This document shows, one piece after another, positions 8,014-39,664 of a stretch of DNA of 64,000 bases (position 1 is the stretch's first letter; every line of letters begins with the position of its first letter). The notes beneath the pieces were generated by a model. That model was given only the letters and a program-made list of their open reading frames with translations, made no database searches and was not told where the DNA came from. Origin of the DNA: Cupriavidus necator (GTDB taxonomy: Bacteria > Pseudomonadota > Gammaproteobacteria > Burkholderiales > Burkholderiaceae). A program made the translations under genes and the position numbers. The stretch lies in NCBI RefSeq assembly GCF_013141915.1, contig NZ_SROX01000015.1, positions 62,001-126,000 of the forward strand, written 5' to 3'.

Positions 8014-8057
8014 AGCTTGGGGCGGGCGTGGCTTCGGGACATCCTTCGTTCGGACTA
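8014..8057 (-). promoter_or_regulatory. Degenerate TeiR-type operator with -10 element (site G)
   Basis: Read leftward, TAGTCC-GAAC-GAAGGAT occupies 8057 to 8041. The left half matches the consensus exactly; the right half differs at two positions from GGACGAT. A CAAGCT hexamer begins 38 bases from the first base of the site, as at the better sites. It would serve the SDR starting at 7955. Confidence 0.45.
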
Positions 8058-8190
8058 AGCGGTGCCATGGCCGGCTACTCCACGCGGACGATGGCTGCCG
8101 GCGCGGCTGGGCCGACGATACTCGCCAACCCAACCACCGGCAGGGTGCCGTATCGGCGCCGCCGGTCACAACCGAGGAGTAAGCCTGGCC

Positions 8191-8610
8191 ATGTCCGAAC
8201 TGGAGCACAAGCAAGCCATTCACGCGCTGACCTGCCGCTATGCGCAGGCGGTGGACCGGCGCGATTTCCCGCGCCTGGCAGAACTGTTCAGCCCGGATGC
8301 ACAGCTGACCGGGCCGGGTTTTCGCATGGACGGCGCGCAAGCCATCGTCGACGGCATGGCATCGCTCGGCCAGTACAGCGCGACGCAGCACCACGTACAC
8401 CAGCAGATGGTGGTGCTCGATGGCGATACCGCGACCGGGGAAACCTATTGCGTGGCCCACCACCTGTATGAGCAGGACGGGGTGGCGCGCAAGCTGGACT
8501 GGGGCATCCGTTACCAGGATCGCTTCGAGCGGTCGCAGGGCCAGTGGCGTATTGCGGCGCGCGAACTGGTGGTGGACTGGACGCAGGACCTGCCGCTGCG
8601 GGGGGCATGA
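8191..8610 (+). CDS. SnoaL-like (NTF2-fold) protein
   Basis: A 139-residue SnoaL_4-type protein with 'ALTCRYAQAVDRRDF' near the start and a conserved QHHVHQ in the middle, as in the scytalone dehydratase-like branch of the NTF2 fold. I chose the ATG at 8191, preceded by GAGGAG, rather than an upstream in-frame ATG at 8062 whose extension reads like non-coding sequence. The stop overlaps the next SDR start (ATGA), so the two are probably made together. A catalytic role on a steroid-derived intermediate is an inference from context only. Confidence 0.65.
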   Translation: MSELEHKQAIHALTCRYAQAVDRRDFPRLAELFSPDAQLTGPGFRMDGAQAIVDGMASLGQYSATQHHVHQQMVVLDGDTATGETYCVAHHLYEQDGVARKLDWGIRYQDRFERSQGQWRIAARELVVDWTQDLPLRGA

Positions 8611-9461
8611 CCATGACTCGGGTACTTGAAGGCAAGACCGCACTCGTCACCGGCGGCGCGGGCGGTATCGGCGCGGCCAGCGCGCTGGCGCTGCTGCGTG
8701 ATGGCGCAGCGGTCGTCCTGATGGGGCGGCGTCGCGAAGCGCTGGAAGCGGCACGGCGCAGCCTGTGCGGTGCGGTGGCCGGCGCCACGGTGGAAATCCG
8801 CGTCGGCGACGCTTGCCGCGAGGATGACGTCCAGGCCGCGCTGCAGCAGGCCTGGGAGCTGGGGCGCCGCCTCGATATCGTCGTGGCGACCGTTGGCGGC
8901 GGCGGTTTCCGCCCGCTGCTGATGCACGATACCGCGTCGCTGATGGCGGAGCTGGAGCTGAACATCGCCAGCGCGTTCCTGGCGATCCGCCAGGCGTCGC
9001 CGTTGATGGCGCCGCATGGCGGCGCGATCGTCTGTATCTCGTCGAACGCGGCGCGCATGACCTGCCGCTGGCTGTCTGCGTACTGCGCTGCGAAAGCGGG
9101 GCTGGAAGCATTCGTGCGCGCCGCGGCCGAGGAGCTGGCGGGATGCGGCATCCGCGTCAACGCGGTGCGCCCGGGGCTTACCCGTTCCGGCGCGACGGGG
9201 CCCATGTTCGACAACCCGGCCATCCTCGACAAGTTCGTCGCGCAGATGCCGCTGGGCCGCGCCGGCGAGCCGGACGACATCGCCAGCGCGGTGCGTTACC
9301 TGGCCGGGCCGGAATCTGGCTGGGTGACGGGACAGAGCATCGCCGTCGATGGCGGCAGCGAACTGCGCGGCAACCCCATCCTCGATGAAACCGTGGCGGC
9401 CATGTATGGCGAAGCCGCGCTGCGCGCGGTGCTGGCCGGCAGGATCCCTGACGCCGCCTGA
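8607..9461 (+). CDS. Short-chain dehydrogenase/reductase
   Basis: A 284-residue classical SDR: VTGGAGGIGAA at the cofactor site and YCAAKAG at the active site, with the C-terminal 'DGGSEL' typical of FabG-like proteins. In place of the usual NNAG it has ATVGGGG, an unusual variant also seen in some steroid and bile-acid SDRs. Translation starts inside the stop of the upstream SnoaL gene. The product is cytosolic and NAD(P)-dependent; the substrate cannot be read from the sequence. Its neighbours point to a hydroxysteroid or a hydroxyacyl-CoA. Confidence 0.7.
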   Translation: MTMTRVLEGKTALVTGGAGGIGAASALALLRDGAAVVLMGRRREALEAARRSLCGAVAGATVEIRVGDACREDDVQAALQQAWELGRRLDIVVATVGGGGFRPLLMHDTASLMAELELNIASAFLAIRQASPLMAPHGGAIVCISSNAARMTCRWLSAYCAAKAGLEAFVRAAAEELAGCGIRVNAVRPGLTRSGATGPMFDNPAILDKFVAQMPLGRAGEPDDIASAVRYLAGPESGWVTGQSIAVDGGSELRGNPILDETVAAMYGEAALRAVLAGRIPDAA

Positions 9462-9486
9462 GGCGGATCACCCAAGGAGAGAAACG

Positions 9487-10245
9487 ATGAATCAAGTCGA
9501 GGGCAAGGTCGTGCTGGTTACCGGTGCGGCCAGCGGGGTAGGGCGCGCCGATGCGCTGCTGCTGGCGGCCGAAGGCGCGCGCGTGGTGCTCACCGATGTC
9601 AACGAAGAGGCCGGCCAGGCGGTGGCGCGCGAGATCGGCGCTGCGGCGCTGTTCGTGCGCCACGACATTGCCAGCGAGGAGGACTGGCGCAAGGCCATGG
9701 CCGCCGCGCAGGACCGCTTCGGCCGGCTCGATGTGCTGGTCAACAATGCAGCCATCTGTCCGCCGGGATCGATCGAGGAAACCTCGCTGGATACCTGGCG
9801 GCAGGTGATGCGCGTCAATGCCGACGGCTACTTCCTCGGCTGCAAGTTCGGCGTGCAGGCGATGAAGGGCAACCCGGCCGGTGGCTCCATTGTGGTGATG
9901 TCGTCGGTGGCGGCGCTGGGCGGATTGCCGATGATGTGCGCGTACAGCGGTGCGAAAGGTGCCGTGACCGCGCTGGCGCGCAGCGTGGCCGTGCACTGCA
10001 AGCGCAACGGCTACCGCATCCGTTGCAATTCCATCCACCCCGACGGGATCTGGACGCCGATGACGCAGGCGCTGGTGCCGGGCCTGGATCCGGTGGCGCT
10101 GGGCATCGGCACGGACCCGATGGCACGCATGTGCCAGCCGGAGGATGTTGCCAACCTGGTGCTGTTCCTGGCTTCGGACGCGTCGCGCTTCATCAACGGC
10201 GCGGAACTGCGCATCGACAACGCGCAGATGGTCTCGGGGCTGTAA
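9487..10245 (+). CDS. SDR similar to 3beta/17beta-hydroxysteroid dehydrogenase (copy 2)
   Basis: A 252-residue paralogue of the SDR at 3053. TGAASGVG is at residues 12-19, NNAA at 86-89, Ser140, Tyr153 and Lys157 are in place, and the 'NSIHPDGIWTPM' substrate loop is shared. The two differ mainly around the loop after position 140 and in the 'LVPGLDPVALGIG' segment, so they may act on different positions or stereochemistry (3beta, 17beta). AAGGAGA lies just upstream of ATG 9487. It ends the rightward run; a GC-rich palindrome follows. Confidence 0.78.
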   Translation: MNQVEGKVVLVTGAASGVGRADALLLAAEGARVVLTDVNEEAGQAVAREIGAAALFVRHDIASEEDWRKAMAAAQDRFGRLDVLVNNAAICPPGSIEETSLDTWRQVMRVNADGYFLGCKFGVQAMKGNPAGGSIVVMSSVAALGGLPMMCAYSGAKGAVTALARSVAVHCKRNGYRIRCNSIHPDGIWTPMTQALVPGLDPVALGIGTDPMARMCQPEDVANLVLFLASDASRFINGAELRIDNAQMVSGL

Positions 10246-10249
10246 GACC

Positions 10250-10286
10250 CGCCGCGGCCGCGCTGCTGGCGCGGGCCGCCGCGGCG
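10250..10286. terminator. GC-rich hairpin between convergent genes
   Basis: CGCCGCGGC at 10250 pairs with GCCGCGGCG ending at 10286, with a further inner CGCGC/GCGCG helix. It fills the short gap between two convergent genes. There is no T-run, so it is at best a weak intrinsic terminator in either direction. Confidence 0.35.
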
Positions 10287-10291
10287 CCGTA

Positions 10292-11191: not shown

Positions 11192-11234
11192 GCTTGTCTC
11201 CTTGGGTGAGTGAGGTGGCCACGGCGCGCGGCCA

Positions 11235-12065
11235 TCAGAGGTTCATGCCGTTGCCGGCGATGACCGGCATGTTGGTCCAGGTCCCTTTTGGGTCGCGATA
11301 CCAGCCGGCGGCGGCAAGCGCGCCGCCGTTGACGTGCAGTGCCGTGCCCGTGATCCAGGCTGCGCGCGCGCTGGCCAGGAACAGGATGCCGTCGGCAATG
11401 TCCCGTGGCGTGCCGAAGCGCCCCAGCGGGATCCAGTGCGGGATATGGTGCTGGTGTTCCGCGGCAACCATCTGCGCCACCGGCACCTGCGGGGTTTCCG
11501 TGGTCTCGGGGGCGATCAGGTTGACGCGGATGCCCGCCGGCGCAAGTTCCAGCGCCAGGCTCTGCGTGAAGCCCGTGATGGCCGCCTTGAAGGCGGCGTA
11601 CACGCTGCAGTACGGGATGCCGCGGAAGGCCTCGATCGACGACACGCTGACGATGCTGCCGGCGGCGCTGCGCCGCAGCAGCGGCAACATGGCACGCGTG
11701 ACGGTGAATACGTGGCCCAGGTTGGCGGCGTAAAGACTGGCGATCTCGTCGTCGGCATACAGCTCGAACGGCTTGGCGATGCGCAGGAAATCGCCGGCGT
11801 TGTTGACCAGCACGTCCAGCGCGCCGAAGCGCGCCTCGACCTGCGCCGCCAGGGCGCGCACGGTGGCGGCATCTGCCGCGTCACCCTGCGCCACCAGCAC
11901 CTCGGCGCCGGCCTGGCCCAGCAGCTTGTGGGCATGGTCGGCCCGCTGCGCGTCGATCTCGAGGATCGCCACGCGCGCCCCCTGCTCCAGGAAGGCTTGC
12001 GCGGTGGCCAGCCCGATGCCGGCGCCGCCGCCGGTGACCAGCACGGTCTTGTCGGTGAAATCCAT
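11235..12065 (-). CDS. Short-chain dehydrogenase/reductase
   Basis: A 276-residue classical SDR with VTGGGAGIGLATA, NNAGDF and YAAFKAAI (YxxxK intact), ending with 'NGGALAAAGWYRDP'. The start at 12065 is supported by AAGGAGA on the reverse strand; the longer in-frame extension to 12209 covers the promoter region and is rejected. The gene runs divergently from the LuxR-type regulator. A degenerate operator copy lies about 70-85 bases upstream. The substrate is unknown; a steroid alcohol or ketone is likely from its setting. Confidence 0.7.
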   Translation of the reverse strand: MDFTDKTVLVTGGGAGIGLATAQAFLEQGARVAILEIDAQRADHAHKLLGQAGAEVLVAQGDAADAATVRALAAQVEARFGALDVLVNNAGDFLRIAKPFELYADDEIASLYAANLGHVFTVTRAMLPLLRRSAAGSIVSVSSIEAFRGIPYCSVYAAFKAAITGFTQSLALELAPAGIRVNLIAPETTETPQVPVAQMVAAEHQHHIPHWIPLGRFGTPRDIADGILFLASARAAWITGTALHVNGGALAAAGWYRDPKGTWTNMPVIAGNGMNL

Positions 12066-12105
12066 CTGAGTCGATCTCCTTCGGTTGCACTGCGGGGATG
12101 CCGAC

Positions 12106-12149
12106 ATTGGAGCGGCGGCGGGCGGCACGGACATCGTCCGATTGCAGGT
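12106..12149 (-). promoter_or_regulatory. Degenerate TeiR-type operator with -10 element (site F)
   Basis: Read leftward from 12149: ACCTGC-AATC-GGACGAT. The right half-site is perfect and is followed by G as at the other sites, but the left half is poor. TCCAAT starts 38 bases from the beginning of the site. It is placed to drive the SDR at 12065 and lies in the region shared with the divergent regulator gene. Confidence 0.4.
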
Positions 12150-12202
12150 CAGGGAAAACACCAGTGTGGCGCAAACCAGGGCAAAACAAGAACGCCGCGT
12201 GG

Positions 12203-12231
12203 CGGACACCGGCGCGCAGCATCCCTATAAT
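12203..12231 (+). promoter_or_regulatory. Sigma-70 promoter of the LuxR-type regulator
   Basis: A perfect TATAAT at 12226-12231 with CGGACA 17 bases upstream, about 70 bases before the regulator start. The regulator gene lacks the TAGTCC operator on its own strand, so it may be expressed constitutively. Confidence 0.6.
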
Positions 12232-12299
12232 CTGCGCAGCCGCCAGGTGCCGCAGAGCGCCGGCGGGCACACACATGGTGTGGAATCAGGAGACCAAGA

Positions 12300-13487
12300 A
12301 TGTTGATGGCGACCGTTGAGGCGCAGGAAGTGGCCACGCCTTTGCTTGCGCAGTCTGGCCTGAGCGTCGCGCAATTCAGCGCGTTGCTGGCCGCGGTCTA
12401 CGAAGGACCGATGGAACCGGTGCCGTGGGGCCATGCGCTCGAGATGCTGCGCAAGCAACTCGACGCCAGCTACGTGAGCTTTATCCTGCGCTCGCCCGCC
12501 AGCGACCGCAGCGGACTGGCGGTGCATGCGTCGGAGCGCGGCACCTCGCTGGAGGCGGAGGCGTCATACAACAGCTACTACTACGCCATCGATCCCTTCA
12601 TCAACCTGCCCACCGACCGGGCGGTGACGGTCGATGAAGCGCTGGGCGCGGGCAACTGGTGCCGCAGCGAGATCTACCGGCAATTCCTGCAGCCGCTCGG
12701 CATCCGGTACCTGCTGGGCGCGGACATCCGTACCGAGGACGGTGTCGAGTGCCGCCTGCGCGTTTGCCGCCAGGACCACGCGCGGGATTTCTCGGACGTG
12801 GAAAAGGCGGCTTGCGGGGTGATCCTGCCGCACCTGAAGCGCGCGGTCCGGCTGCATTCCCGGCAGGATGTGGTGGAATCGGAGCGCTCGCTCTATGCGG
12901 GCGCGATCGATCGCATGCTGGTGGGCATGGTGATCCTCGACGCCGCCGGCACGATCCTCAAGAAGAATCCCGAAGCCGACGAGATCCTGACGGAGAACGA
13001 TGGCATCCGCCTGAACGGGAACACCTTCGAAATCGCGTACGCCCACGAAAGCCGCAAGTTCCAGTACCTGCTGCGCCGTGCCCAGATGGGACACCACGGC
13101 AGCGCGCCGGCGCTGGCCGAGGCCATGTCGATCACGCGCCCGTCAGGGCGCGGCAAGCTGGGCGTGCTGATCCGCACCATTCCGCTCAGCGAATGGTCGG
13201 AAGAAAACCGGCATCGTCCGGCCTGCGCGGTCTTTATCCGCGATCCCGAGCGCAAGTCGCGCGCCTCGCACGAGGTGGTGCGCAAGCTGTTCGACCTCAC
13301 GCCAGCGGAGACCTCCCTGGCACTGGTGCTTGCCGACGGCATGACGCTGGACGAAGCGGCGGAGGCATTGGGTACCAGCAAGAACACGGCACGCGCCCAC
13401 CTGCGCGCGATTTTCTCCAAGACGGGAGTCACGCGGCAGGCCACGCTTGTGCGCATGCTGCTGAGCAGTGTCGTGACGCTCGGCTGA
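12300..13487 (+). CDS. teiR: LuxR-family transcriptional regulator, TeiR/TesR-like
   Basis: A 395-residue regulator whose last 65 residues form a LuxR-type helix-turn-helix ('LTPAETSLALVLADGMTLDE' followed by TSKNTARAHL). The long N-terminal part has no recognisable receiver domain and is probably a ligand-sensing region. Length and layout match TeiR/TesR of Comamonas testosteroni (about 390 residues), the positive regulator of testosterone genes. It sits in the middle of the steroid cluster, just before the hsaC operon. AGGAGA lies 6 bases upstream of ATG 12300. I infer that it binds the TAGTCC-N4-GGACGAT sites described here, which sit at the activator position. Confidence 0.72.
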   Translation: MLMATVEAQEVATPLLAQSGLSVAQFSALLAAVYEGPMEPVPWGHALEMLRKQLDASYVSFILRSPASDRSGLAVHASERGTSLEAEASYNSYYYAIDPFINLPTDRAVTVDEALGAGNWCRSEIYRQFLQPLGIRYLLGADIRTEDGVECRLRVCRQDHARDFSDVEKAACGVILPHLKRAVRLHSRQDVVESERSLYAGAIDRMLVGMVILDAAGTILKKNPEADEILTENDGIRLNGNTFEIAYAHESRKFQYLLRRAQMGHHGSAPALAEAMSITRPSGRGKLGVLIRTIPLSEWSEENRHRPACAVFIRDPERKSRASHEVVRKLFDLTPAETSLALVLADGMTLDEAAEALGTSKNTARAHLRAIFSKTGVTRQATLVRMLLSSVVTLG

Positions 13488-13537: not shown

Positions 13538-13581
13538 TAGTCCGATTGGAGGATGAGCGCCGCGAGCCGCGCTCCTAGCAT
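13538..13581 (+). promoter_or_regulatory. TeiR-type operator with -10 element (site A)
   Basis: TAGTCC-GATT-GGAGGAT at 13538-13554 (one mismatch in the right half), and TAGCAT at 13576-13581, 38 bases from the site start. The site is extended by TCC/GGA arms. It lies about 180 bases before the EthD-family gene, implying a longer leader than at the other sites. Confidence 0.6.
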
Positions 13582-13718: not shown

Positions 13719-14435
13719 ATGGAAAAAGTTATCTATATCGTCTGGCGCGATCCGCGGACCGAGCCGGCGGAATTCTCACGCCGGCTGCGCACAACGCTTG
13801 CGGACAAGCTGCTGGGACTGGGCGCGCGCGGACTGCAGGTGAACGTGGCCGATGATGCGGTATGGCCTGCCGCGGGCCTGCGGCAGGCGAATACCCGCCC
13901 GCAGATGGAGGGGCTGGTTTCGGTCTGGATGGACAGCGCCATCGACCGCTTGCGCCAGCCGTTCGACCAGGCAATTGAGGCCGCCGCGGGCCGCATGGCC
14001 GGCTACCTCGTTACGGAATCCCAGCCCATCCGCAATACGCGTTTTCCGGCGGCGCCCGGAGAGCGCACGCCCGGCTTTGCGCAGCTGGCCTTCCTCACAC
14101 GGCCGCCCCGGCTCACGCCACAGGCGTGGCTGGACACCTGGCACAACCACCATACGCCAGTAGCGGTCGAGACCCAGGACAACTTCCTCTACGTGCAGAA
14201 CGTGGTGGTGCGGCCGCATACGTACGCCGCGCCGCCCTACGACGCCATCGTCGAAGAGTGCTTCCCGGACGACGCGATGACCGACCCGCAGGCGTTCTTC
14301 GATGCCGTAGGCGATGAGGAAAAATTCCAGCGCAACCTGCAGGCCATGATGGCCAGCTGCCAGCGCTTCATCGACTTCGACAAGATCGACGTGATTCCCA
14401 CCAGCCAGTACATCGTGCGCCCCGCCGCGGCCTGA
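13719..14435 (+). CDS. EthD-domain protein of unknown function
   Basis: A 238-residue protein with the EthD/dimeric alpha-beta barrel signature: two related halves, the second with 'AWLDTWHNHHTPVAVETQ'. Such folds occur in small oxygenase accessory proteins, cyclases and degradative isomerases. It stands alone between two operator copies, one upstream and one between it and hsaC, so it is very likely expressed with steroid breakdown. No catalytic role is known to me. GGGAG and GGAG precede ATG 13719. Confidence 0.65.
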   Translation: MEKVIYIVWRDPRTEPAEFSRRLRTTLADKLLGLGARGLQVNVADDAVWPAAGLRQANTRPQMEGLVSVWMDSAIDRLRQPFDQAIEAAAGRMAGYLVTESQPIRNTRFPAAPGERTPGFAQLAFLTRPPRLTPQAWLDTWHNHHTPVAVETQDNFLYVQNVVVRPHTYAAPPYDAIVEECFPDDAMTDPQAFFDAVGDEEKFQRNLQAMMASCQRFIDFDKIDVIPTSQYIVRPAAA

Positions 14436-14453
14436 TTCCGTCACCGGACCGGC

Positions 14454-14497
14454 TAGTCCCACTGGACGATGTGCCGAGTCGCGGCGCACGGAAGAAT
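14454..14497 (+). promoter_or_regulatory. TeiR-type operator with -10 element (site B)
   Basis: TAGTCC-CACT-GGACGAT at 14454-14470 matches the consensus fully. AAGAAT at 14492-14497 begins 38 bases from the start of the site. The hsaC start codon is 45 bases further on. This should be the main promoter of the long ring C/D operon. Confidence 0.7.
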
Positions 14498-14541: not shown

Positions 14542-15438
14542 ATGTTGGACATTCGTGCGCTTGGCTACATCGTGGTCGAGTCCACCGACATCGGGCAGTG
14601 GCGACACTATGCCGAACAGGTGCTGGGCATGGCCTGTTCCGGTGCCCCCGGCGGTGCGCTGTACGTCAAGATGGATGAGCGCGACTACCGCTACCTGGTG
14701 GTGCCGGGCGCGCGCGACCGCTACCTGGCATCGGGCTGGGAACTGGCGGACGAGCCGGCCTACCGCCATGCGCTGGACACGCTGCGCCAGGCCAACGTGG
14801 AGGTCGTGCACGCCAGTGCCGCGGAGCTCGCGCAGCGCCGCGTGCAGGCCATGGCCTGGTTCGCCGATCCGTCGGGCAACCGCCATGAGATCTCATGGGG
14901 CATGCGCTCGGACTTCCTGCGCTTTGTCTCGCCGGTGGGCGTGCCGCGCTTCATCACCGATCCGATGGGGGCGGGCCATGCCGTGCTGCCCGCGCCGGCC
15001 TTCGACGAAACCTACGCCTTCCTGTGCGATGTGATGGGTTTCGGCCTGTCCGATATCTTCCGTGTGCGCTTCACCAGCGACCCGGCGGAGCCGGAGAAGC
15101 GCATCCACTTCATGCATTGCGGCAACGGCCGCCACCACAGCCTGGCGATCTTCGAGATGCCGTCCGAAGCCGGCTGCATCCACGTGATGGCCGAGGTCCC
15201 GGACATGGCCGAGGTGGGCCGCGCGCTGGACCGCGTGCAGCAGCACGGCGTGAAGCTCTCCGCCACGCTGGGCCAGCACTGCAATGACCGCATGACTTCC
15301 TTCTACATGAAGACCCCCGGCGGCTTCGACCTCGAGTTCGGCCACGGCGGGCTGGTGGTGGACTGGAGCCACCACGCCGCCTACGAGGCCACGCGCGTGA
15401 GCCTGTGGGGCCATGACTTCAGCATCGGATACCGCTAA
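14542..15438 (+). CDS. hsaC: Extradiol ring-cleavage dioxygenase (3,4-DHSA dioxygenase)
   Basis: A 298-residue two-domain vicinal-oxygen-chelate dioxygenase of the BphC/HsaC/TesB type. The Fe(II) ligands His146, His199 and Glu265 are present, in GHAVL, GRHHSLA and GGFDLEFGHG. It opens the catecholic A ring of 3,4-DHSA by meta-cleavage, after KstD/Ksh have opened ring B and HsaAB has added the second hydroxyl. The start follows GAGGAG by a few bases. It leads an operon with ipdA, ipdB, an enoyl-CoA hydratase and ipdC, with gaps of about 15 bases. Other catechol substrates are possible, but the context strongly supports steroid cleavage. Confidence 0.85.
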   Translation: MLDIRALGYIVVESTDIGQWRHYAEQVLGMACSGAPGGALYVKMDERDYRYLVVPGARDRYLASGWELADEPAYRHALDTLRQANVEVVHASAAELAQRRVQAMAWFADPSGNRHEISWGMRSDFLRFVSPVGVPRFITDPMGAGHAVLPAPAFDETYAFLCDVMGFGLSDIFRVRFTSDPAEPEKRIHFMHCGNGRHHSLAIFEMPSEAGCIHVMAEVPDMAEVGRALDRVQQHGVKLSATLGQHCNDRMTSFYMKTPGGFDLEFGHGGLVVDWSHHAAYEATRVSLWGHDFSIGYR

Positions 15439-26729: not shown

Positions 26730-27529
26730 CCCTTCACACCGAAACCCCCGCCGCCCCGGCCTATGTACCGGGCCACCAGCTGCTCGCCGGCAAGAGCGTC
26801 CTGATCACCGCGGCCGCGGGCGCCGGCATCGGCTTTGCCGCCGCGCGCCGCTGCGCGGAGGAGGGCTGCCGCGCGCTGATGATTTCCGATATTCATCCCA
26901 AGCGGCTGGAAGAGGCAGTCGAACGCCTGCGTGCGGAAACCGGCCTGCAGGCTATCCACGGCCAGCGTTGCGATGTGTCGGATGAAGCGCAGGTGCGCGC
27001 ACTTGTGGCCGCCGCCGAAGAAGCGTTGGGCGGCACCGACGTACTGATCAACAACGCCGGCCTGGGCGGGTCGCGCCGCCTAGTTGATATGGACGATGCC
27101 GAGTGGTCGCGCGTCATCGATATTTCCCTCACCGGCACCTTCCGCATGACGCGCGCGATGCTGCCGCACATGCAGGCGCGCCGGCGCGGCGCCATCGTCA
27201 ACAACGCCTCGGTGCTGGGCTGGCGGGCACAGAAGGAGCAGTCGCATTACGCCGCGGCCAAGGCCGGAGTGATGGCGCTGACGCGCTGCAGCGCGATGGA
27301 GGCCGCCGAGTTTGGCGTGCGCATCAACGCGGTAGCGCCGAGCATTGCGCTGCACGACTTCCTGAAGAAGTCGGCACCGGCGGACCTGCTGCGGCAACTG
27401 AGCGAGCGCGAGGCGTTCGGGCGCGCGGCGGAGGTGTGGGAGGTGGCCAATGTGATGGTGTTCCTGGCCAGCGACTATGCGTCGTATATGACCGGGGAGG
27501 TGTTGCCGGTGAGCAGTCAGCGGGCGTGA
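26726..27529 (+). CDS. ipdF: IpdF-type dehydrogenase of C-ring hydroxyl
   Basis: A 267-residue SDR that agrees with mycobacterial IpdF (Rv3559c) in several distinctive segments: 'ITAAAGAGIGFAAARR' at the cofactor site, 'NNASVLGWRAQKEQSHYAAA' around the active site, and 'LASDYASYMTGEV' near the end. IpdF oxidises the 5-hydroxyl of the HIP side-chain-shortened CoA ester so that IpdC can act. It closes the coupled run 24382-27529. A REP-like palindrome follows. Confidence 0.85.
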   Translation: MTLHTETPAAPAYVPGHQLLAGKSVLITAAAGAGIGFAAARRCAEEGCRALMISDIHPKRLEEAVERLRAETGLQAIHGQRCDVSDEAQVRALVAAAEEALGGTDVLINNAGLGGSRRLVDMDDAEWSRVIDISLTGTFRMTRAMLPHMQARRRGAIVNNASVLGWRAQKEQSHYAAAKAGVMALTRCSAMEAAEFGVRINAVAPSIALHDFLKKSAPADLLRQLSEREAFGRAAEVWEVANVMVFLASDYASYMTGEVLPVSSQRA

Positions 27530-32969: not shown

Positions 32970-34211
32970 ATGCCCGAGAGCCAGATTTCTGCCGCGCCGG
33001 CCTTCATGCCGCTTCGCATTGGCCCGCTGACGCTGCGCAACCGCTTTATCAAGGCCGGCGCGAATGAAGGCATGACGCCGCATGGCCTGCCCACCCGGGC
33101 GCTGGTCGCACATCATCGCGAGCTGGCCGCTGGCGGCGTGGGCATGACCACGGTGGCCTACGCGGCCGTGGCCGACGACGGACTGACCTTCGCGCACCAG
33201 CTCAGCATGCGCGCGGAGCAGGTGCCGCACCTGCGCGTGCTGACCGACGCGGTGCATCGCGAAGGCGCGGCGGCCTGCCTGCAGATCACGCACGCGGGTT
33301 CGTTCACCACCATGCGCCACGGCGGCAGCCGGGCGCCGGGCAGCGCGTCATCGGGCCTCAATGCCTTCGGCATGATGCACGGCGTGTATTTCCAGCGCGC
33401 CATGCGCGCGCCGGACATGGACCGCGTGGCCGCCCAGTTCGCCGCGGCCGCACGGCTGGCGCGCGAAGCCGGTTTCGACGCGGTGGAAATCCACATGGGG
33501 CACGGCTACCTGCTCAACCAGTTCCTGTCGCCGCTGAGCAACCGGCGGCGCGATGCCTACGGCGGCAGCGTGGAAAACCGGACCCGTTTTCCGGCCGCCG
33601 TGCTGCGCCAGGTGAAGGATGCTGTCGGCGCCGACCTCGCGGTGTGCTGCAAGCTCAGCGTCAGCGACGCCGTGCCGGGCGGCAACCAGCCAGAGGACTC
33701 GGCGCTGACCGCGCGCTTGCTGGAAGCCGAGGGCGCGGACCTGCTGACCCTCAGCGGCGGACGCAACGTGGAAAGCCCGTGGGCGCTGTTCGGCAGCCCG
33801 ATGCCGACCGCGCAGATGAAGGCTGCCGCACCGACCGCACTGGCACGCCTGGGCATCACCATGCTGGAGAAGCGGACCCCGCGCGACCTGGCCTTCCGCG
33901 AACTGTATTTTCTCGAGGCCTCGCGCGTGGTGCGCCAGGCGGTGCGGATGCCGCTGGCCTATGTCGGCGGGGTCAAGTCGCTCGACAACGTGGCGCAGCT
34001 GATGGGCGAGGGCTTCGATGCCGTGGCCCTTGCGCGTGCGCTGATCCACGACCCGGCGCTGGTCGCCGGCTGGCGCGACGGCGCGCTGCAGCGCTCGGCC
34101 TGCGACAGCTGTAATGGCTGCGTGGCGCGGATCTACGATCCTGCCGGCGTCAGCTGCGTGCACGGCCCCGGCAACGACCCGGCGCTCACCCGCATGGTTG
34201 CGCTGCAGTAG
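32970..34211 (+). CDS. Old-yellow-enzyme family NADH:flavin oxidoreductase
   Basis: A 413-residue FMN-dependent reductase of the OYE/2,4-dienoyl-CoA reductase family. It has 'GHGYLLNQFLSPLSNRRRDA' followed by YGGS, and 'LITHAG'-like 'CLQITHAGSFT'. It lacks the C-terminal FAD/NAD domain of DCR-type enzymes but ends with a cysteine-containing 'CDSCNGCVARIYDPAGVSC'. It may reduce an enone of the steroid or a dienoyl-CoA. Its TAG stop forms the first three bases of the kshA operator, so the two are physically linked. The substrate is unknown. Confidence 0.72.
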   Translation: MPESQISAAPAFMPLRIGPLTLRNRFIKAGANEGMTPHGLPTRALVAHHRELAAGGVGMTTVAYAAVADDGLTFAHQLSMRAEQVPHLRVLTDAVHREGAAACLQITHAGSFTTMRHGGSRAPGSASSGLNAFGMMHGVYFQRAMRAPDMDRVAAQFAAAARLAREAGFDAVEIHMGHGYLLNQFLSPLSNRRRDAYGGSVENRTRFPAAVLRQVKDAVGADLAVCCKLSVSDAVPGGNQPEDSALTARLLEAEGADLLTLSGGRNVESPWALFGSPMPTAQMKAAAPTALARLGITMLEKRTPRDLAFRELYFLEASRVVRQAVRMPLAYVGGVKSLDNVAQLMGEGFDAVALARALIHDPALVAGWRDGALQRSACDSCNGCVARIYDPAGVSCVHGPGNDPALTRMVALQ

Positions 34212-34252
34212 TCCGATGGGACGATGAGCCCGGGGCCCGACGCCCCTATCTT
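34209..34252 (+). promoter_or_regulatory. TeiR-type operator with -10 element (site C)
   Basis: TAGTCC-GATG-GGACGAT at 34209-34225 matches the consensus exactly, with TATCTT at 34247-34252, 38 bases from the site start. The kshA start codon is 35 bases downstream of the -10. The first three bases are the stop codon of the preceding gene. Confidence 0.7.
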
Positions 34253-34286
34253 GAAGGTCCCACGGGATTTCAAGGAGACAGACGCC

Positions 34287-35363
34287 ATGAGCGTACAAGG
34301 CTACAAGATCGAATCGCGCCCGCCCGAGGCCCGCTACGCGCGCGGCTGGCATTGCCTGGGCCTGGCCGAAAGCTACCGCGACGGCAAGCCGCACACGCTG
34401 GACATCTTCGGCACGCGCCTGGCGGCATTTGCCGACTCGACCGGTGCGATTCGCGTGATCGACGGCCACTGTCCGCACATGGGCGCCGACCTCAGCACCG
34501 GCACCGTGCAGGGCGACAACCTGGTGTGCCCGTTCCACGGCTGGCAGTGGGGCGGCGACGGCGGTTGCAAGTCCATCCCTTACTGCAAGCGGGTACCGCC
34601 CAAGGCGCGCATCGGTGCCTGGGAGACCTGCGAGCAGAACCACCTGCTGTTCATCTGGCACGACCCGGAAGGCCGCCCGGCGCCGCCGGACGTCGCCATC
34701 CCGCGCATCGACGCCTGTTTCTCGGACGAGTGGTCCGACTGGGCCATCGACGAGATGGTGATCCGGACCAACTGCCGCGAGCTGGTCGACAATATCTCGG
34801 ACATGGCGCATTTCGGCACGGTCCACGGCGCCCCGGTCGACTACTTTGCCAACCTGTTCGAAGCCCACAAGGCCACGCAGCTGATGATCGGGCGCAGCGC
34901 GCGGCTGTCAGGCGATGCGCAGCTGACGGCCTTGTCCACGTACTTCGGGCCGGCCTACCACATCACCGACATGAGCGGCCACATGGGCGACCAGGAGATC
35001 CATTCGGTGCTGCTCAACTGCCATGTCCCGATCGACCTGAACAGCTTCGTGCTGCGTTACGGCGTGCTGGTGAAGAAGATCCCGGGGCTGTCGGAAGAGC
35101 AGAACCGCGCCATGGCGCAGGCCTACGTGGAACAGGCGCGCCAGGCGTTCTACGAGGACGTGGCGATCTGGGACAGCAAGATCCGCATCGACAATCCGCT
35201 GCTGTGCGAAGGCGATGGGCCGATCTACCAGATGCGGGAGTGGTATCAGCAGTTCTATACGGATGTGGAGCAGGTGCGCCCGTCCAGCGTGGCGCGGCGG
35301 GTGGTCGAGCTGAACCCGGGCAATATCGACCCGCCGGTGTTGCGGCATGTGTTTGAGGGCTGA
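34287..35363 (+). CDS. kshA: 3-ketosteroid 9alpha-monooxygenase, oxygenase component
   Basis: A 358-residue Rieske oxygenase. The [2Fe-2S] ligands are Cys62, His64, Cys81 and His84 (HCPHMGAD and CPFHGW). The mononuclear iron ligands are His175, His180 and Asp291 (SDMAHFGTVH and YEDVAIWDSK). It shares long stretches with Rhodococcus and Mycobacterium KshA, such as 'RYARGWHCLGLA', 'EWSDWAIDEM' and 'VYQLRxWYQQFY'-like 'IYQMREWYQQFYTDVE'. It hydroxylates C9 of the androstadienedione nucleus, which opens ring B; KshB at 3844 would supply electrons. ATG 34287 follows AAGGAG. It has its own operator and promoter. Confidence 0.9.
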   Translation: MSVQGYKIESRPPEARYARGWHCLGLAESYRDGKPHTLDIFGTRLAAFADSTGAIRVIDGHCPHMGADLSTGTVQGDNLVCPFHGWQWGGDGGCKSIPYCKRVPPKARIGAWETCEQNHLLFIWHDPEGRPAPPDVAIPRIDACFSDEWSDWAIDEMVIRTNCRELVDNISDMAHFGTVHGAPVDYFANLFEAHKATQLMIGRSARLSGDAQLTALSTYFGPAYHITDMSGHMGDQEIHSVLLNCHVPIDLNSFVLRYGVLVKKIPGLSEEQNRAMAQAYVEQARQAFYEDVAIWDSKIRIDNPLLCEGDGPIYQMREWYQQFYTDVEQVRPSSVARRVVELNPGNIDPPVLRHVFEG

Positions 35364-35427
35364 TGTGGTCTTTGTCGACGGCGGCCTCGACGCCGTGAAC
35401 ATGCGCTGACGATTCGCCCGGACCGGA

Positions 35428-35472
35428 TAGTCCGGGCGGACGATGCCCGCAGCGCAGCGTCATGGGAACAAT
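35428..35472 (+). promoter_or_regulatory. TeiR-type operator with -10 element (site D)
   Basis: TAGTCC-GGGC-GGACGAT at 35428-35444, full consensus, with AACAAT at 35467-35472, 39 bases from the site start. It lies about 55 bases before the sulfatase start codon. Confidence 0.65.
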
Positions 35473-35526
35473 GCGGAGCGCCAGGGACATGCCGTCGCGC
35501 CGGCCCACCGACATCGCAGGACGCCC

Positions 35527-37812
35527 ATGCAATTTGCCCCCAAGCTCATCGTCACCTGCCTGGCGCTAGCCGCCACGTCTGCATACACGCAGGGCCCCGC
35601 CGTTGCCGGCGCTGAAAGCCAGCCGGCCTACCAGGTCAAGCCGCCGGCAGGCGCGCCCAACGTGGTGATCGTGCTGCTCGACGATGTCGGCTTCGGTGCC
35701 GCCTCCACCTTCGGCGGCCCCGTGCAGACGCCGGTGCTGGAGTCGCTGGCGCGCGAGGGCCTGCGCTACAACAACTTCCATACCACGGCGATCTGCTCGC
35801 CCACCCGCTCGGCATTGCTGACCGGCCGCAATGCGCACGCGACCGGAATCGGCGCGGTGGCGAATGTCGCGGACGAACGTCCGGGATACAGCAGTTTCCA
35901 CACCAAGGACACCGCCAGCATCGCCGAGGTGCTGCGCCAGCACGGCTATAACACCGCGGCGTTCGGCAAATGGCACCAGACGCCGGACTGGGAGCTGTCG
36001 CCAAGCGGCCCGTTCGACCGCTGGCCGACCGGGGAAGGGTTCGAGCGCTTCTATGGTTTCCATGGCGGCGAAACGGACCAGTACGAGCCTTCGCTGTATG
36101 ACGGCACGACTCCGGTGATGCGGCCGCCGGGGCGCGACTACCACCTCACTGCGGACCTCGCCGACAAGGCGATCGACTGGCTGCGCGTGCAGCGCGCGGT
36201 CACGCCGGACAAGCCAGTGTTCCTGTACTTTGCACCGGGGGCGGCCCATGCGCCGCTGCAGGCGCCGAAGGCGTGGATCGACCGCTATCGCGGCAAGTTC
36301 GATCAGGGCTGGGACAAGCTGCGCGAGGAGATCTTCGCCCGGCAGAAGTCGCTTGGCGTAATCCCGGCGAACACCCGGCTGACGACGCGCATGCCCGACC
36401 TGCCGGCGTGGGACACGCTGTCGCCGGACCAGAAGCGGGTAGCATCGCGGCTGATGGAAGTCTATGCCGGCTTCCTCGCGCATGCCGATGCGCAGGTCGG
36501 CAAGCTGGTCGATGCCTTGAAGGCGAGCGGCCAGTTCGACAACACCATGTTCCTGTATATCGTTGGCGATAACGGCGCCAGCTCGGAAGGCGGCCTGCTC
36601 GGCAGTGCGAGCTATTTCGCGCCGGTGCAGGGGTTGCCGGAGACCGATGCGATCCGGCTGGCACAGCTCGACGCGCTGGGCGGTCCCGGCACCTACCCGC
36701 ACTTTCCCGCCGGCTGGGCCTGGGCGCTGGATACGCCCTTCAAATGGTCGAAAGCAGTGGCCTCGCACCTGGGCGGAACGCGCAACCCGATGGTGGTGAC
36801 CTGGCCCAGGCGCATGGTGCAACGTGGTGCGCTGCGCAGCCAGTTCGGCCATGTCAACGACATCGTGCCCACCATCCTGGAGGCTGCCCGGATCCAGGCG
36901 CCGCCGGTGGTCAACGGCATCCCGCAGAAGCCGATCGATGGCGCGAGCCTGCTCTACAGCTTTGCCGACGCGAAGGCAGCGTCGCGCCATGCCACGCAGT
37001 ACTTCGAGGTGTTCGGCCACCGTGCCATCTACCACGATGGCTGGATGGCATCGGCCTTCCACAGCCGGCGCCCATGGTCCGTGATCGACTATGGCCAGAA
37101 GCCGTTCGAGGACGACCAGTGGGAGCTCTATGACCTCACTACCGATTTCTCGCAGGCCAACGACCTGGCGCGGCGCGAGCCGGCGCGGCTGGCGGCAATG
37201 CAGGACCTGTTCCTGCGCGAAGCGGCGCGCAACCAGGTGCTGCCGCTGCGCAACATGTCGCCCACCGACGCCAGGGCGCTGCCATCGCTGTCCGCGGGCC
37301 GCACCAGCGCGACCTTCACGCAGGGCGCGGTCGGTGTTCCCGAATCGGCGCTGCCCAAGACCTATAACCGCTCCTGGAGCGTGTCGGCCATGATTGAAAC
37401 AGGCGCTCAGGCGCGTGGCGTAATCGCGACGCTGGGCGGCCATAGCGCGGGCTGGTCGCTTTACCTGGACGGCAACGGATATCCGGTGTTCACGTACCGC
37501 CTGTTCGACCTGAAGACGGTGACGCTGCGCGGGCCCGCACCGCTGTCCGCCGGACGCCATCAGCTGCGCTTCGATTTCGATTATGACGGCGGCGGCTATG
37601 GCAAGGGCGCCGCGGTACAGTTGCGGGTCGATGGCAAGCCGGTTGGCCGGGATCGCTTACCGGCGAGCCCGCCGGGCTTCTACACCATCGATGAGACCTT
37701 CGATGTCGGGATCGATCATGGCTCGATGGCGGGGGAATATCCTGCCGGGGCGATGCCTGGTTATGCTTTTACCGGCGGGCGTATCGATAAGGTTCTGGTC
37801 GAACTGCGGTGA
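35527..37812 (+). CDS. Secreted arylsulfatase-family sulfatase
   Basis: A 761-residue sulfatase. Residues 1-23 look like a signal peptide, the metal-binding VLLDDVGFG contains Asp52 and Asp53, and Cys90 in CSPTR is the residue converted to formylglycine. 'GKWHQT' and 'GDNGAS' are further active-site segments. The C-terminal 150 residues form an extra beta-rich region. It should act in the periplasm or outside, releasing sulfate from esters. Its TeiR-type operator and position next to kshA suggest that steroid sulfates are the substrates. Dedicated sulfatase maturation enzymes are not in the window. ATG 35527 is preferred to an upstream in-frame ATG at 35443, which overlaps the operator. Confidence 0.8.
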   Translation: MQFAPKLIVTCLALAATSAYTQGPAVAGAESQPAYQVKPPAGAPNVVIVLLDDVGFGAASTFGGPVQTPVLESLAREGLRYNNFHTTAICSPTRSALLTGRNAHATGIGAVANVADERPGYSSFHTKDTASIAEVLRQHGYNTAAFGKWHQTPDWELSPSGPFDRWPTGEGFERFYGFHGGETDQYEPSLYDGTTPVMRPPGRDYHLTADLADKAIDWLRVQRAVTPDKPVFLYFAPGAAHAPLQAPKAWIDRYRGKFDQGWDKLREEIFARQKSLGVIPANTRLTTRMPDLPAWDTLSPDQKRVASRLMEVYAGFLAHADAQVGKLVDALKASGQFDNTMFLYIVGDNGASSEGGLLGSASYFAPVQGLPETDAIRLAQLDALGGPGTYPHFPAGWAWALDTPFKWSKAVASHLGGTRNPMVVTWPRRMVQRGALRSQFGHVNDIVPTILEAARIQAPPVVNGIPQKPIDGASLLYSFADAKAASRHATQYFEVFGHRAIYHDGWMASAFHSRRPWSVIDYGQKPFEDDQWELYDLTTDFSQANDLARREPARLAAMQDLFLREAARNQVLPLRNMSPTDARALPSLSAGRTSATFTQGAVGVPESALPKTYNRSWSVSAMIETGAQARGVIATLGGHSAGWSLYLDGNGYPVFTYRLFDLKTVTLRGPAPLSAGRHQLRFDFDYDGGGYGKGAAVQLRVDGKPVGRDRLPASPPGFYTIDETFDVGIDHGSMAGEYPAGAMPGYAFTGGRIDKVLVELR

Positions 37813-38141
37813 GGCGTGCGGGTGGGGCGGGTCGGGTCGACCGACGATTGGACGAACCCGACTTTAGGCTGTTGGGTGCCTGCCAGGCAGGTTATTGGCG
37901 GTACGTCCCCGGCTGCGCTGCGCTCACCATCTCATGTCGTCTGTCTTGTCTTGCACCGGGTGCGTCGCTGCGCTCGCCTGTTTGCGCCCCGCTCCCGCGT
38001 GCGCGAGAGGGGCGAGGGTTGAGGGCCAGCGCATCCACGCAGTGAGGACCCGGAATCGACCACCCTTGTCGTCAGGCCCGCCGCCCTCAGCTAGCGTCGT
38101 GCGGTCGACTTTCATGAAACGATAGGAGGTCCGGAAGCACC
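37813..38141. other. Intergenic region between convergent genes
   Basis: No gene is supported here. There is a short GTCGGGTCGACCGAC-like self-complementary stretch near 37846 and a degenerate CCCGCTCCCGCGTGCGCGAG palindrome near 37988-38010 related to the REP-like family. A GGACGA without the TAGTCC half-site occurs at 37849. Confidence 0.5.
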
Positions 38142-38169
38142 AAAAAAAGGGCGCTCCAAAGAGCGCCCC
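38142..38169 (-). terminator. Intrinsic terminator of the DUF1329 gene
   Basis: On the reverse strand an 8-bp stem GGGCGCTC closed over a 4-base loop is followed by seven T, 18 bases after the DUF1329 stop. Confidence 0.9.
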
Positions 38170-38186
38170 AGCCAATCACGATGCAA

Positions 38187-39566
38187 TCAGGTCCCTGACC
38201 CGCGCGCGGCGTCAGGAGAGAAGAATGCCTCGTTGAACTCGGGACTGTTGTTCAGCTTGGCCATCGGCCCTTCGTTGGTCAGGCGGTCCGCCAGGTAGGC
38301 GCCCGAGATCAGGTCATGGTAGAACACCGTAGCCGCGGAGAAGCGGCGCGCATCATAGGCATAGACCAGCGCCTGCAGGTTGGTGCGCCACAGCTGGCCG
38401 CGGCCGTCGTAGTTGTCGGCGGCAACCGATTGCCAGGTGTCTTCGTCGAGATACAGCACGCGCTTCGCATACTGGTGGCGGAAGCCGGATTTTAGCGTTG
38501 CCTCCAGGATCCATACCCGATGCAGTTCGTAGCGCATGACGTCCGGATTGGCATGGCCGTTGGTCAGCAGGTCCTTGTACTTGACCGACGCGCTCATCAG
38601 CTTGTAGGTGTGGTACGGGACGTAGAACTCCTTCTTGCCGACGATTTTCCAGTTGTAGCGCTCGCCTGAGCCATTGAACAGGCGGTCGTCGTCCACCGTG
38701 CGGAAGCCGCCCGGGCCCTGCGGCTGGTCGAAGCCGAACTCCGGCGCCTGGCGTACGCGCCGCGTGCCCGGGTTGTAGATCCATGTGCGGTTGGTATCTG
38801 AACCTTCCTGGTCCCAGACGGCATAGCCCACGATCACCTGCCCGCGGTCACGCAGCGGCAGGTCGGTGGCGGTGCGGAAGAAGGTGCGCTCGTTGAGGGG
38901 GTTGTCGGGCTCGAACTTGCCGTGGTTGCGCGGGGAAAAGATGCTGTAGGAGACGCGCCCCCAAGCGATCGAGCCATTCGGATAGACCACGGCCTGGTCG
39001 TACTGCGCCTTCTCGGTGCCGATGGCCGCCGAGAAGCGCTGGTTCCACAGCAACTCCATGGCGGTCTTCGGGATCGGGAAGGGAACCTGCGGCCCGGCGC
39101 CCTTCAGCCCGTTGGCATCGCTGGTCATGCTGACGGTGGTCGCGTAGGTGCGGATGTCCTTGTAGGCCGCGTCCTCGTAGCGGAAGTCGCGATGGCTCGG
39201 GTACACCGGCATCTTGAAGGTATCGGGGTACTTCTTGAACAGCGCTTTCTGGCCTTCGGTCAGCCGCTCGGCGTACTGCGCCATGTTCTGCGCGGTGATG
39301 ACGAACAGCGGCTTCTCGTCGGCATACGGGTCCGGATAGCGGTCGCCGCGCTGGTACTTGACGTGGGACGGCGCACCCAGCCACTTTCCGCTCCACGCCG
39401 GCACCTCGCCGTCCTTGCTGGCGGCGCGCTCGGCGCCCATCGGGGTGAGGGTGCTGTCGAGCTGCTTGAGTTCTTCCGGCGTGGCCTTCGCCCATGATGC
39501 CGCGGCCAGTGCCATGCTGGTGACCAGCAGGCCCCCGCGCAGCAGTCGTTGTGTACTGGATGTCAT
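38187..39566 (-). CDS. DUF1329 outer-membrane/periplasmic protein
   Basis: A 459-residue DUF1329 protein with a signal peptide ending near residue 26 (ALAAASWA) and the family's long beta-rich body ('WNQRFSAAIGTEKAQYDQ', 'WIYNPGTRRVRQAPE'). DUF1329 proteins resemble lipoprotein-sorting folds (LolA/LolB-like) and are usually found with DUF1302, YCF48 and RND genes in degraders of hydrophobic substrates. DUF1302 is absent in this window. The perfect TAGTCC half of an operator lies about 98 bases upstream. A role in moving steroids across the envelope is inferred. Confidence 0.78.
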   Translation of the reverse strand: MTSSTQRLLRGGLLVTSMALAAASWAKATPEELKQLDSTLTPMGAERAASKDGEVPAWSGKWLGAPSHVKYQRGDRYPDPYADEKPLFVITAQNMAQYAERLTEGQKALFKKYPDTFKMPVYPSHRDFRYEDAAYKDIRTYATTVSMTSDANGLKGAGPQVPFPIPKTAMELLWNQRFSAAIGTEKAQYDQAVVYPNGSIAWGRVSYSIFSPRNHGKFEPDNPLNERTFFRTATDLPLRDRGQVIVGYAVWDQEGSDTNRTWIYNPGTRRVRQAPEFGFDQPQGPGGFRTVDDDRLFNGSGERYNWKIVGKKEFYVPYHTYKLMSASVKYKDLLTNGHANPDVMRYELHRVWILEATLKSGFRHQYAKRVLYLDEDTWQSVAADNYDGRGQLWRTNLQALVYAYDARRFSAATVFYHDLISGAYLADRLTNEGPMAKLNNSPEFNEAFFSPDAARGSGT

Positions 39567-39620
39567 GACGTCTCGCTCCTTTTGACGGAAGTGGCCGGTG
39601 ATGCCCGGGCCCCTGGTGAC

Positions 39621-39664
39621 AGGGTAGTGAGGGCATGCCGGCCGGGAATCGTTGGAACGGACTA
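39621..39664 (-). promoter_or_regulatory. TeiR-type operator with -10 element (site E)
   Basis: Read leftward: TAGTCC-GTTC-CAACGAT from 39664 to 39648, with two mismatches in the right half, and TACCCT from 39626 to 39621, 38 bases from the site start. It is oriented toward the DUF1329 gene. Confidence 0.6.

Follow-up and report, generated by a model that had tools for sequence, protein, structure and literature searches.

In Comamonas testosteroni TA441, TesR is needed for the induction of tesB-tesR, tesA1-tesG and tesA2-ORF18, according to the accessible part of that report (PMC6895838), and TeiR has been reported as a polar membrane kinase in the available portions of two articles (PMC6678751, PMC8399759). 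According to the available excerpts of reviews, little is understood of how Proteobacteria regulate steroid and bile-acid degradation, and TeiR is presented there as both a LuxR-type factor and a kinase. KstR homologues are given as absent from bile-acid-degrading Proteobacteria in the portion of PMC8399759 that was accessible. A literature search, in which sources were in part available as excerpts and the original TeiR paper was out of reach, found no description of the operator considered here.

The 64-kb stretch of Cupriavidus necator DNA analysed in this work, referred to as the window, includes a series of dyads that, as judged from sequence, are very probably the operators of a TeiR/TesR-type steroid-catabolism regulon controlled by a class II LuxR-type activator.

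Probable operator sites and promoters in the window

A sequence-only reading had listed seven sites of the form TAGTCC-N4-GGACGAT. Six of them were found as given, while the minus-strand site at 12149, which reads ACCTGC-AATC-GGACGAT, keeps the right half only and has four mismatches in the left half. A motif scan of the window located exact matches at 14454, 34209 and 35428, one mismatch at 13538, and two mismatches each at 39664 (−) and 8057 (−). The list of seven was incomplete: an eighth site at 8076-8092 (+) is divergent from the 8057 site and is followed by GACGAT at offset 38, so that the window includes eight sites, and at least eight more are located beyond it. The features are as follows.

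7089-7955 (−): SDR gene downstream of the 8057 operator (Pfam adh_short; start placed by eye)
8014-8019 (−): −10-like CAAGCT, offset 38
8041-8057 (−): operator TAGTCCGAACGAAGGAT, two mismatches, ahead of the SDR gene; conserved in 5 congeners
8076-8092 (+): operator TACTCCACGCGGACGAT, one mismatch; orthologues in 5 congeners, the left side more degenerate in 3 of the 5
8114-8119 (+): −10-like GACGAT, offset 38
8191-8610 (+): SnoaL-like gene downstream of the 8076 operator (PF13577 on the longer frame 8062-8610; start by eye)
11235-12065 (−): SDR gene downstream of the 12149 half-operator (Pfam adh_short_C2; start by eye)
12106-12111 (−): −10-like TCCAAT, offset 38, without A2
12133-12149 (−): half-operator ACCTGCAATCGGACGAT with an intact right half; all 5 congener copies found are identical
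12300-13487 (+): TeiR-like LuxR-type regulator of 395 aa (paralogue P1), combining a GAF/PAS-like sensory part with a GerE helix-turn-helix
13538-13554 (+): operator TAGTCCGATTGGAGGAT, one mismatch
13576-13581 (+): −10-like TAGCAT, offset 38
13719-14435 (+): EthD-domain gene (PF07110)
14454-14470 (+): operator TAGTCCCACTGGACGAT, exact
14492-14497 (+): −10-like AAGAAT, offset 38
14542-15438 (+): HsaC/TesB-like extradiol dioxygenase gene heading the ring-degradation run (NF045631, 299 bits, under the cut-off of 450)
34209-34225 (+): operator TAGTCCGATGGGACGAT, exact
34247-34252 (+): −10-like TATCTT, offset 38
34287-35363 (+): KshA-like Rieske oxygenase gene (PF19298 KshA_C, PF00355; start by eye)
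35428-35444 (+): operator TAGTCCGGGCGGACGAT, exact; the congener stretches compared gave no orthologous copy
35467-35472 (+): −10-like AACAAT, offset 39
35527-37812 (+): sulfatase gene (PF00884; start by eye)
38187-39566 (−): DUF1329 gene (PF07044)
39621-39626 (−): −10-like TACCCT, offset 38
39648-39664 (−): operator TAGTCCGTTCCAACGAT, two mismatches; all 4 congener copies found are identical

The earlier proposal that a −10-like hexamer begins 38 or 39 bases from the first base of the site was borne out at all eight sites (offset 38, except for 39 at 35428). Both A2 and T6 of the hexamer are present in seven of them, the exception being TCCAAT at 12149, which has T6 only. At the eight window promoters the dyad is close to TMGTCY-N4-RGACGAT, 38-39 bases ahead of the −10-like hexamer. 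At three or fewer mismatches the window has 25 matches, which include double readings of single dyads and matches within coding DNA, compared to 8.1 expected (sd 2.9), and none of 100 shuffles reached 25. The match at 27081, for example, falls within an SDR frame by our reading.

In class II activation by LuxR-type proteins the lux box lies near −42. The center of the dyad is about 30 bases ahead of the −10, and the offsets of 38 and 39 agree with the previously suggested center near −42 if transcription starts at the inferred positions. The right half of the operator runs into a conserved ATG at offsets 15-17, the position where a −35 with a 17-bp spacer would begin. Among 148 operators, offsets 15-20 read ATGNNN and not TTGACA (G17.93, T16.71, no dominant base at 18-20). 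This is best read as a weak, degenerate −35 merged with the operator, from which it would follow that the activator replaces −35 recognition.

Conservation of the proposed operator and co-occurrence with the regulator

The spacing was analysed in 113 sites (one mismatch at most) collected from 80 named loci that surround related regulators. Of the 113, 50 have an A2/T6 hexamer at offset 38 and 32 have one at offset 39, compared to 0-9 at each of the other offsets between 18 and 63; this accumulation upholds the earlier statement that a chance origin of the fixed spacing has a small probability. In the same 80 loci, 200 permuted motifs averaged 1.1 sites (maximum 15) versus the 113 real ones, and the motif plus −10 gave 81 sites versus a permuted average of 0.0 (maximum 1). 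In a separate comparison, 60 permuted relaxed motifs averaged 0.4 (maximum 3) versus 224. All of these counts are drawn from related, partly overlapping loci that are not independent. A footprint of 12 Cupriavidus sites showed identities of.975 for the left half,.998 for the right half and.978 for the −10, versus.789 for the spacer and.72-.73 for the flanks; orthologues were taken as the best ungapped 100-base match (at least 58) with the motif included, which leans slightly towards motif conservation.

The motif plus −10 goes with the TeiR-like regulator in two genera. The 11 Cupriavidus genomes with the regulator have 19-31 composite matches and the 19 without it have 3-18 (Mann-Whitney p 3.6e-6). 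In genus g70, which includes a Comamonas MAG, 18 of 18 regulator-bearing genomes have 4-10 composite sites, versus one site each in 3 of 35 genomes without the regulator (Fisher p 2e-11). In both Cupriavidus and g70 the regulator and the ring-degradation genes are found either together or not at all, and therefore presence or absence alone cannot separate the regulator from the pathway. Around distant LuxR paralogues a single site turned up in 22 loci (0.42 Mb), versus 240 in 112 P1-like loci (2.31 Mb). A strict recognition-helix signature was discarded as a classifier; it split true relatives, and nine loci without the signature had sites, so the loci were reclassified by identity to P1.

The operator occurs in Cupriavidus, Pandoraea, Pseudomonas, Marinobacter, Pseudoduganella, Comamonas and a Vibrio plasmid, and a LuxR gene of the same clade is located near it in every stretch examined from these genera. 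The Vibrio plasmid (45% GC) has four such dyads ahead of steroid-type genes. No operator was found in three alphaproteobacterial steroid loci lacking this regulator clade, which are few and distant, and the relaxed site was not found within the stretches examined of 16 of the 112 P1-like loci, among them several from Burkholderia and three of Nevskia type (L217, L218, L221). A scan of nine mixed genomes for motifs with at most one mismatch was uninformative: the counts were close to the reversed control in most, including one from Burkholderia that carries four regulators (10 versus 10), and G093 had 8 versus 4.

Sites elsewhere in the genome

Further operators lie a short way upstream of the window, and others belong to a second steroid locus. 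Frequent matches at unrelated genes had been named in advance as evidence against the regulon; at one mismatch or fewer the genome has 13 matches: eight in the extended steroid cluster, one before an hsaD-like gene at the second steroid locus, one before a thiolase gene, and three elsewhere. A plain count at two or fewer mismatches without the −10 was dropped as a test in this genome, as it showed no genome-wide enrichment (148 matches versus 246 for the reversed control). The target genes include HsaC-like, KshA-like, HsaA-like and HsaD-like genes, among others. The thiolase site on C38, which has a −10-like TAAAAG at offset 38, is conserved in G337 and G475 and, among the matches listed, is absent in nine genomes without the regulator; it is likely a member of the regulon. 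Another match, the one on C5, is by our reading the start of rpsF, and its sequence is present in nine regulator-less genomes among the matches listed.

An operator subclass ending in GGACGA(A/G) stands before PAPS-synthesis and sulfotransferase genes. We tentatively consider an operator code, itself rather doubtful, in which GGACGAT with the −10 at 38 would direct ring degradation through P1/P2, and GGACGA(A/G) with the −10 at 39 would direct a sulfation module, consisting of cysD-cysNC (PAPS), a DUF1214 protein and a sulfotransferase, through the P3 branch, so that steroid degraders would switch on their own steroid sulfation. Sulfation could then perhaps detoxify, park or export intermediates, and the sulfatase of the same regulon would reverse it.

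The regulators

The idea of a single LuxR-type regulator did not hold: the genome has three paralogues, one inside the window (P1) and two just upstream of it (C6:56729, 69%, and C6:44793, 50%), with near-identical recognition helices. The GerE domain of P1 spans residues 333-386 (24.3 bits, Pfam cut-off 23.5), and GerE is present in 10 of 10 aligned family members. Neither an autoinducer-binding domain nor a kinase family was among the Pfam matches at E ≤ 0.1 in these 10 members. Hydropathy maxima are 1.55 for P1, 1.17 for P2, 1.34 for P3 and 1.62 for the Comamonas homologue, the last value being about the usual cut-off for a membrane segment. The predicted structure of P1, obtained from 10 sequences, has a mean pLDDT of 71 and a pTM of 0.48, and its whole-chain TM to GAF/PAS proteins is only 0.2-0.3; it was therefore used for the domain outline alone.

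Mode of action and alternative explanations

We infer that the regulator is the binding protein, as well as its dimer binding, its ligand, activation over repression, and the transcription starts. A LuxR-type activator (P1-P3) with a GAF/PAS-like sensory part and a GerE DNA-binding domain would bind TMGTCY-N4-RGACGA in dimeric form in the presence of a steroid or steroid metabolite, and would activate the sigma-70 polymerase in the class II mode, standing in for −35 recognition. The fixed 38/39 register fits class II activation. This same register led us to reject two other explanations. It is improbable that the dyad belongs to another regulator of the steroid cluster, such as a TetR-type repressor, with the LuxR-type genes as bystanders. 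A TetR-type gene does exist at the second steroid locus (L035:10525), TetR, LysR and further regulators act on steroid genes in C. testosteroni according to the accessible parts of PMC6678751 and PMC8700777, and the co-occurrence of regulator and pathway is compatible with it; but a repressor has no need of a fixed distance to the −10, and the operator lies near the clade's LuxR gene in every examined stretch from the genera named above and the Vibrio plasmid. Even less probable is a piece of an unusual promoter, namely the −35 of an alternative sigma factor, which would account for the rigid −10 spacing and for the G conserved at offset 17. Against it, both halves of the 16-base dyad are conserved, the 21 bases between the end of GGACGAT and the −10 are too long for a −35/−10 spacer, and the −10 letters (A2, T6) are sigma-70-like.

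A chance likeness, or an artefact of coding DNA or repeats, is hardly credible: several window matches at three or fewer mismatches are in coding DNA and the C5 match, which we read as the rpsF start, recurs in nine regulator-less genomes among the matches listed, but the permutation, footprint and presence/absence tests all speak against it and rule it out for the eight listed promoters. A different division of labour within a correct regulon is a serious possibility, somewhat less likely than not; P2/P3 could act at most sites, or mixed dimers could form with P1 dispensable. The similarity of the three recognition helices is in line with it, as are G436, G463, G522 and G528, which lack a close P1 orthologue and keep the pathway and 19-27 composite matches. 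On the other hand, P1 is kept inside the cluster at 83-94% identity in six congeners.

Comparison with known systems

TeiR/TesR of C. testosteroni, a positive regulator of steroid catabolism, is like P1 a LuxR-type protein of about 390 aa tied to a tesB-tesR-like run, and the kinds of target genes are the same. The run from the HsaC-like to the thiolase gene in the window is also found in the Comamonas MAG, where the operator precedes the HsaC/TesB-like gene by 88 bases and the far end of the run is taken by a LuxR gene; this LuxR gene, at a tesR-like position, is 36% identical to P1. The probable link to C. testosteroni TeiR rests on clade and gene order. As differences, Cupriavidus has three paralogues and TeiR is also called a polar membrane kinase in the available text of its sources.

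The likeness to class II LuxR-type activation consists of a dyad centered near −42 that overlaps the −35. Quorum-sensing LuxR receptors have an autoinducer-binding N-terminal domain, which was not among the Pfam matches of this family mentioned above, and the letters of the quorum-sensing lux box differ from those of these operators. VqmA resembles P1 in combining a small-molecule-sensing PAS with a LuxR-type HTH (7dwm, rank 48 among the structural matches); however, the whole-chain TM is about 0.2, P1 adds a GAF-like N-terminal part, and the ligand class is expected to differ. The KstR/KstR2 regulons of Actinobacteria are likewise steroid-degradation regulons defined by an operator, as described in the accessible parts of PMC6678751 and PMC8399759, but KstR and KstR2 are TetR repressors, and protein and operator are unrelated to the dyad and LuxR regulators described here.

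The operator provides an address for scattered steroid genes (hsaD-like, thiolase, sulfotransferase), and together with its promoter it offers parts for steroid biosensors. The dyad is most likely the docking site of the TeiR-family steroid-responsive activator, whose mode of action has been disputed. Since a single operator in constant register with its promoter recurs in Beta- and Gammaproteobacteria, short DNA and a reporter would allow a direct test of how this regulation works.

Proposed operators in the C. necator genome

The window (C6:62001-126000), part of a 7-Mb genome, contains steroid ring-degradation genes coding for a CoA-transferase, enoyl-CoA hydratases, thiolases and acyl-CoA dehydrogenases, and the TeiR-like LuxR-type regulator P1 (12300), which shows 93% identity to copies in named Cupriavidus records. 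An open frame of 2998 codons lies on the + strand (47872-56868). All seven sites proposed by the sequence-only reading, dyads close to TMGTCY-N4-RGACGAT, were found by a motif scan, but the one at 12149 (−) has only the right half of the dyad, and a promoter at 8076 (+) had been overlooked, making eight of this form in the window. The fixed spacing held in 8/8, with the −10-like hexamer beginning at offset 38 from the first base of the operator (39 at 35428); A2 and T6 are present in seven of the eight hexamers. Scanning the DNA upstream of the window in this way gave five further operators, and others lie at a second locus; the set thus covers hsaA-, hsaC-, hsaD- and kshA-type genes at separate places. 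HsaC, HsaA and HsaD all score under the cut-offs of their NCBIfam models, so these names indicate homologues only.

Genes and operators (bare positions refer to the window; C6, C38 and C40 are contigs of the genome)
14542: HsaC-like dioxygenase (homologue, NCBIfam score below cut-off)
34287: KshA-like Rieske oxygenase
35527: sulfatase
38187: DUF1329 protein
C6:44793: regulator paralogue P3, 50% identity to P1
C6:46180 (−): operator before P3, TACGAT at offset 37
C6:49102 (−) and 49132 (+) (L031:5103/5133): divergent operators between cysD-cysNC and a DUF1214-sulfotransferase pair
C6:56729: regulator paralogue P2, 69% identity to P1
C6:58337 (+): operator before a luciferase-type monooxygenase gene
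C6:59738 (+): operator before an HsaA-like gene
C40:279-284 kb: second locus, also with hydratase and acetaldehyde dehydrogenase genes
C40:279504 (−): operator before a DUF1302 gene
C40:280387: operator before an HsaD-like gene
C40:283235: operator
C40:284140: weaker operator
C38:267188-267204 (L004:1501-1517): operator without mismatches, flanked by a rimO-like gene (rimO by reading) and a downstream thiolase gene

The C38 thiolase operator has the −10-like TAAAAG at offset 38 and is kept in two of the congeners listed.

Promoter layout and conservation

The dyad centre lies about 30 bases before the −10 box, that is near −42 as had been proposed, provided that the −10 occupies −12 to −7. In a set of 148 distinct operators, 93% have G at offset 17, a position beyond the dyad, and 71% have T at offset 16. 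As ATG at offsets 15-17 is the start point of a −35 with a 17-bp spacer, the right half appears, from its sequence, to continue into a degraded −35. Class II activation has this arrangement, with a dyad near −42 overlapping a degraded −35.

Orthologous stretches from up to six congeners were available for 12 of the 13 own-genome operators, none being found in the congeners searched for that at 35428. Mean identity to our sequence was.975 in the left half and.998 in the right,.938 in N4 and.978 in the −10, while the 21-base spacer (.789) and the flanks (.727 and.718) were less conserved. The half-site at 12149 was unaltered in five congeners.

Specificity of the motif

In 80 named loci around related regulators, taken with 10-kb flanks, 113 sites were found with ≤1 mismatch, against a mean of 1.1 (sd 2.1, max 15) for 200 letter-permuted motifs; requiring a −10 at 38 or 39 left 81 sites against a permuted mean of 0.0 (max 1), counts that are not independent because the loci are related and some overlap. 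An A2/T6 hexamer started at offset 38 in 50 of the 113 sites and at 39 in 32, and at every other offset from 18 to 63 in 0-9.

The expected clustering at steroid genes applied to most matches of the own genome, not to all. With ≤1 mismatch, eight of 13 were in the extended cluster, one was before the HsaD-like gene, one before the thiolase gene and three elsewhere; with ≤2 mismatches plus the −10, ten of 22 were in the cluster (one of them coding), four at the second locus and eight elsewhere. Without the −10, the motif was not enriched in the own genome at ≤2 mismatches (148 vs 246 for a reversed control).

Regulator or pathway

The single LuxR-type regulator claimed previously is the only one of its kind in the window, but the extended cluster, which includes the DNA just upstream, carries the three paralogues P1, P2 and P3. 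Among 30 same-genus genomes, the 11 with regulator(s) had 19-31 composite hits (operator plus spaced −10) versus 3-18 in the 19 with none at the threshold used. In genus g70 (53 genomes, including a Comamonas sp. MAG whose contig places are identical in G540 and G582), each of the 18 with a regulator had 4-10 composite sites, while of the 35 without, three had one and 32 had none. The ring-degradation genes and the regulator occur in identical genome sets in both genera, and thus presence and absence tie the operator to regulator and pathway jointly. Two comparisons help to tell these apart: the 22 loci of distant LuxR proteins with <35% identity and another recognition helix (20 stretches, which take in 22 of 29 distant matches, and two plasmid loci; 0.42 Mb in total) gave 1 relaxed site, versus 240 in 112 P1-like loci (2.31 Mb), and no operator with −10 was found in three alphaproteobacterial steroid loci lacking the P1 clade (92.6 kb).

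No relaxed site was found within the stretch scanned in 16 of the 112 P1-like loci, including several from Burkholderia and three of Nevskia type; in the genome of locus L217 composite hits equalled 10 versus 9 in the control, and the left half has drifted to TCATCC or TCGTCC in Burkholderia. In some relatives the sites used are therefore weaker, different or farther away. A Candidatus Binataceae MAG (L206), from a distant group, has operator-like sites and a regulator 56% identical to P1, through either horizontal transfer or mis-binning.

Sulfation genes

Operators before CysD (PAPS synthesis) and the DUF1214-sulfotransferase pair end in A/G rather than T in 37 of 38 instances, which include duplicate stretches from the same genomes, and 36 of these 37 have the −10 at offset 39. 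The exception, L268, ends in T, has offset 38 and lacks a close P3. Among the other 125 distinct operators, AT forms the end of 105. This pattern was found in Cupriavidus, Burkholderia-type, Paraburkholderia and Pseudomonas loci; no operator was present at the place searched in L211 and L267 (DUF1214-sulfotransferase pair) or before the Vibrio cysD. Judging by these sequences, an operator code specific to paralogues is possible. The divergent arrangement with cysD-cysNC was found again in other genera, a hint of regulated sulfation in steroid degraders. In Novosphingobium aromaticivorans pNL2 (L290:8074-10576) DUF1214 adjoins the sulfotransferase near HsaC-like and KshA-like genes, without an operator.

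Other genera and comparison with known systems

Many operators were found in Pandoraea, Pseudomonas and Marinobacter clusters. Four such dyads occur on the Vibrio alfacsensis plasmid NZ_CP140104.1 (L236, L292; 45% GC), where they precede genes for VOC (HsaC-like), acyl-CoA dehydrogenase and electron-transfer flavoprotein or lie within a divergent hydratase/SDR pair. This fish-associated plasmid carries a steroid ring-degradation run, a 38% identical regulator, cysD and cysN.

No such operator was found in the open-access literature searched, including passages of PMC6678751, PMC8399759, PMC12239570, PMC6895838 and PMC8700777. PMC6678751 and PMC8399759 report a kinase role for TeiR. The predicted model of our regulator combines a GerE domain with a GAF/PAS-like sensory part; a domain search gave no match to a kinase family, and a fold search with the model gave weak matches. 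We infer that the regulator acts as a direct DNA-binding activator; it would bind DNA itself and activate promoters in the class II arrangement, and it may also have the kinase role reported for TeiR.

The Comamonas MAG has the operator TAGTCTCAATGGACGAT 88 bases upstream of an HsaC/TesB-like gene, whose run closes with a LuxR gene sharing 36% identity with P1. A second operator precedes a run that includes HsaD-, hydratase- and aldehyde-dehydrogenase-like genes and lies 1.1 kb from the first recognised gene. In strain TA441, according to PMC6895838, TesR is required for induction of tesB-tesR, tesA1-tesG and tesA2-ORF18.
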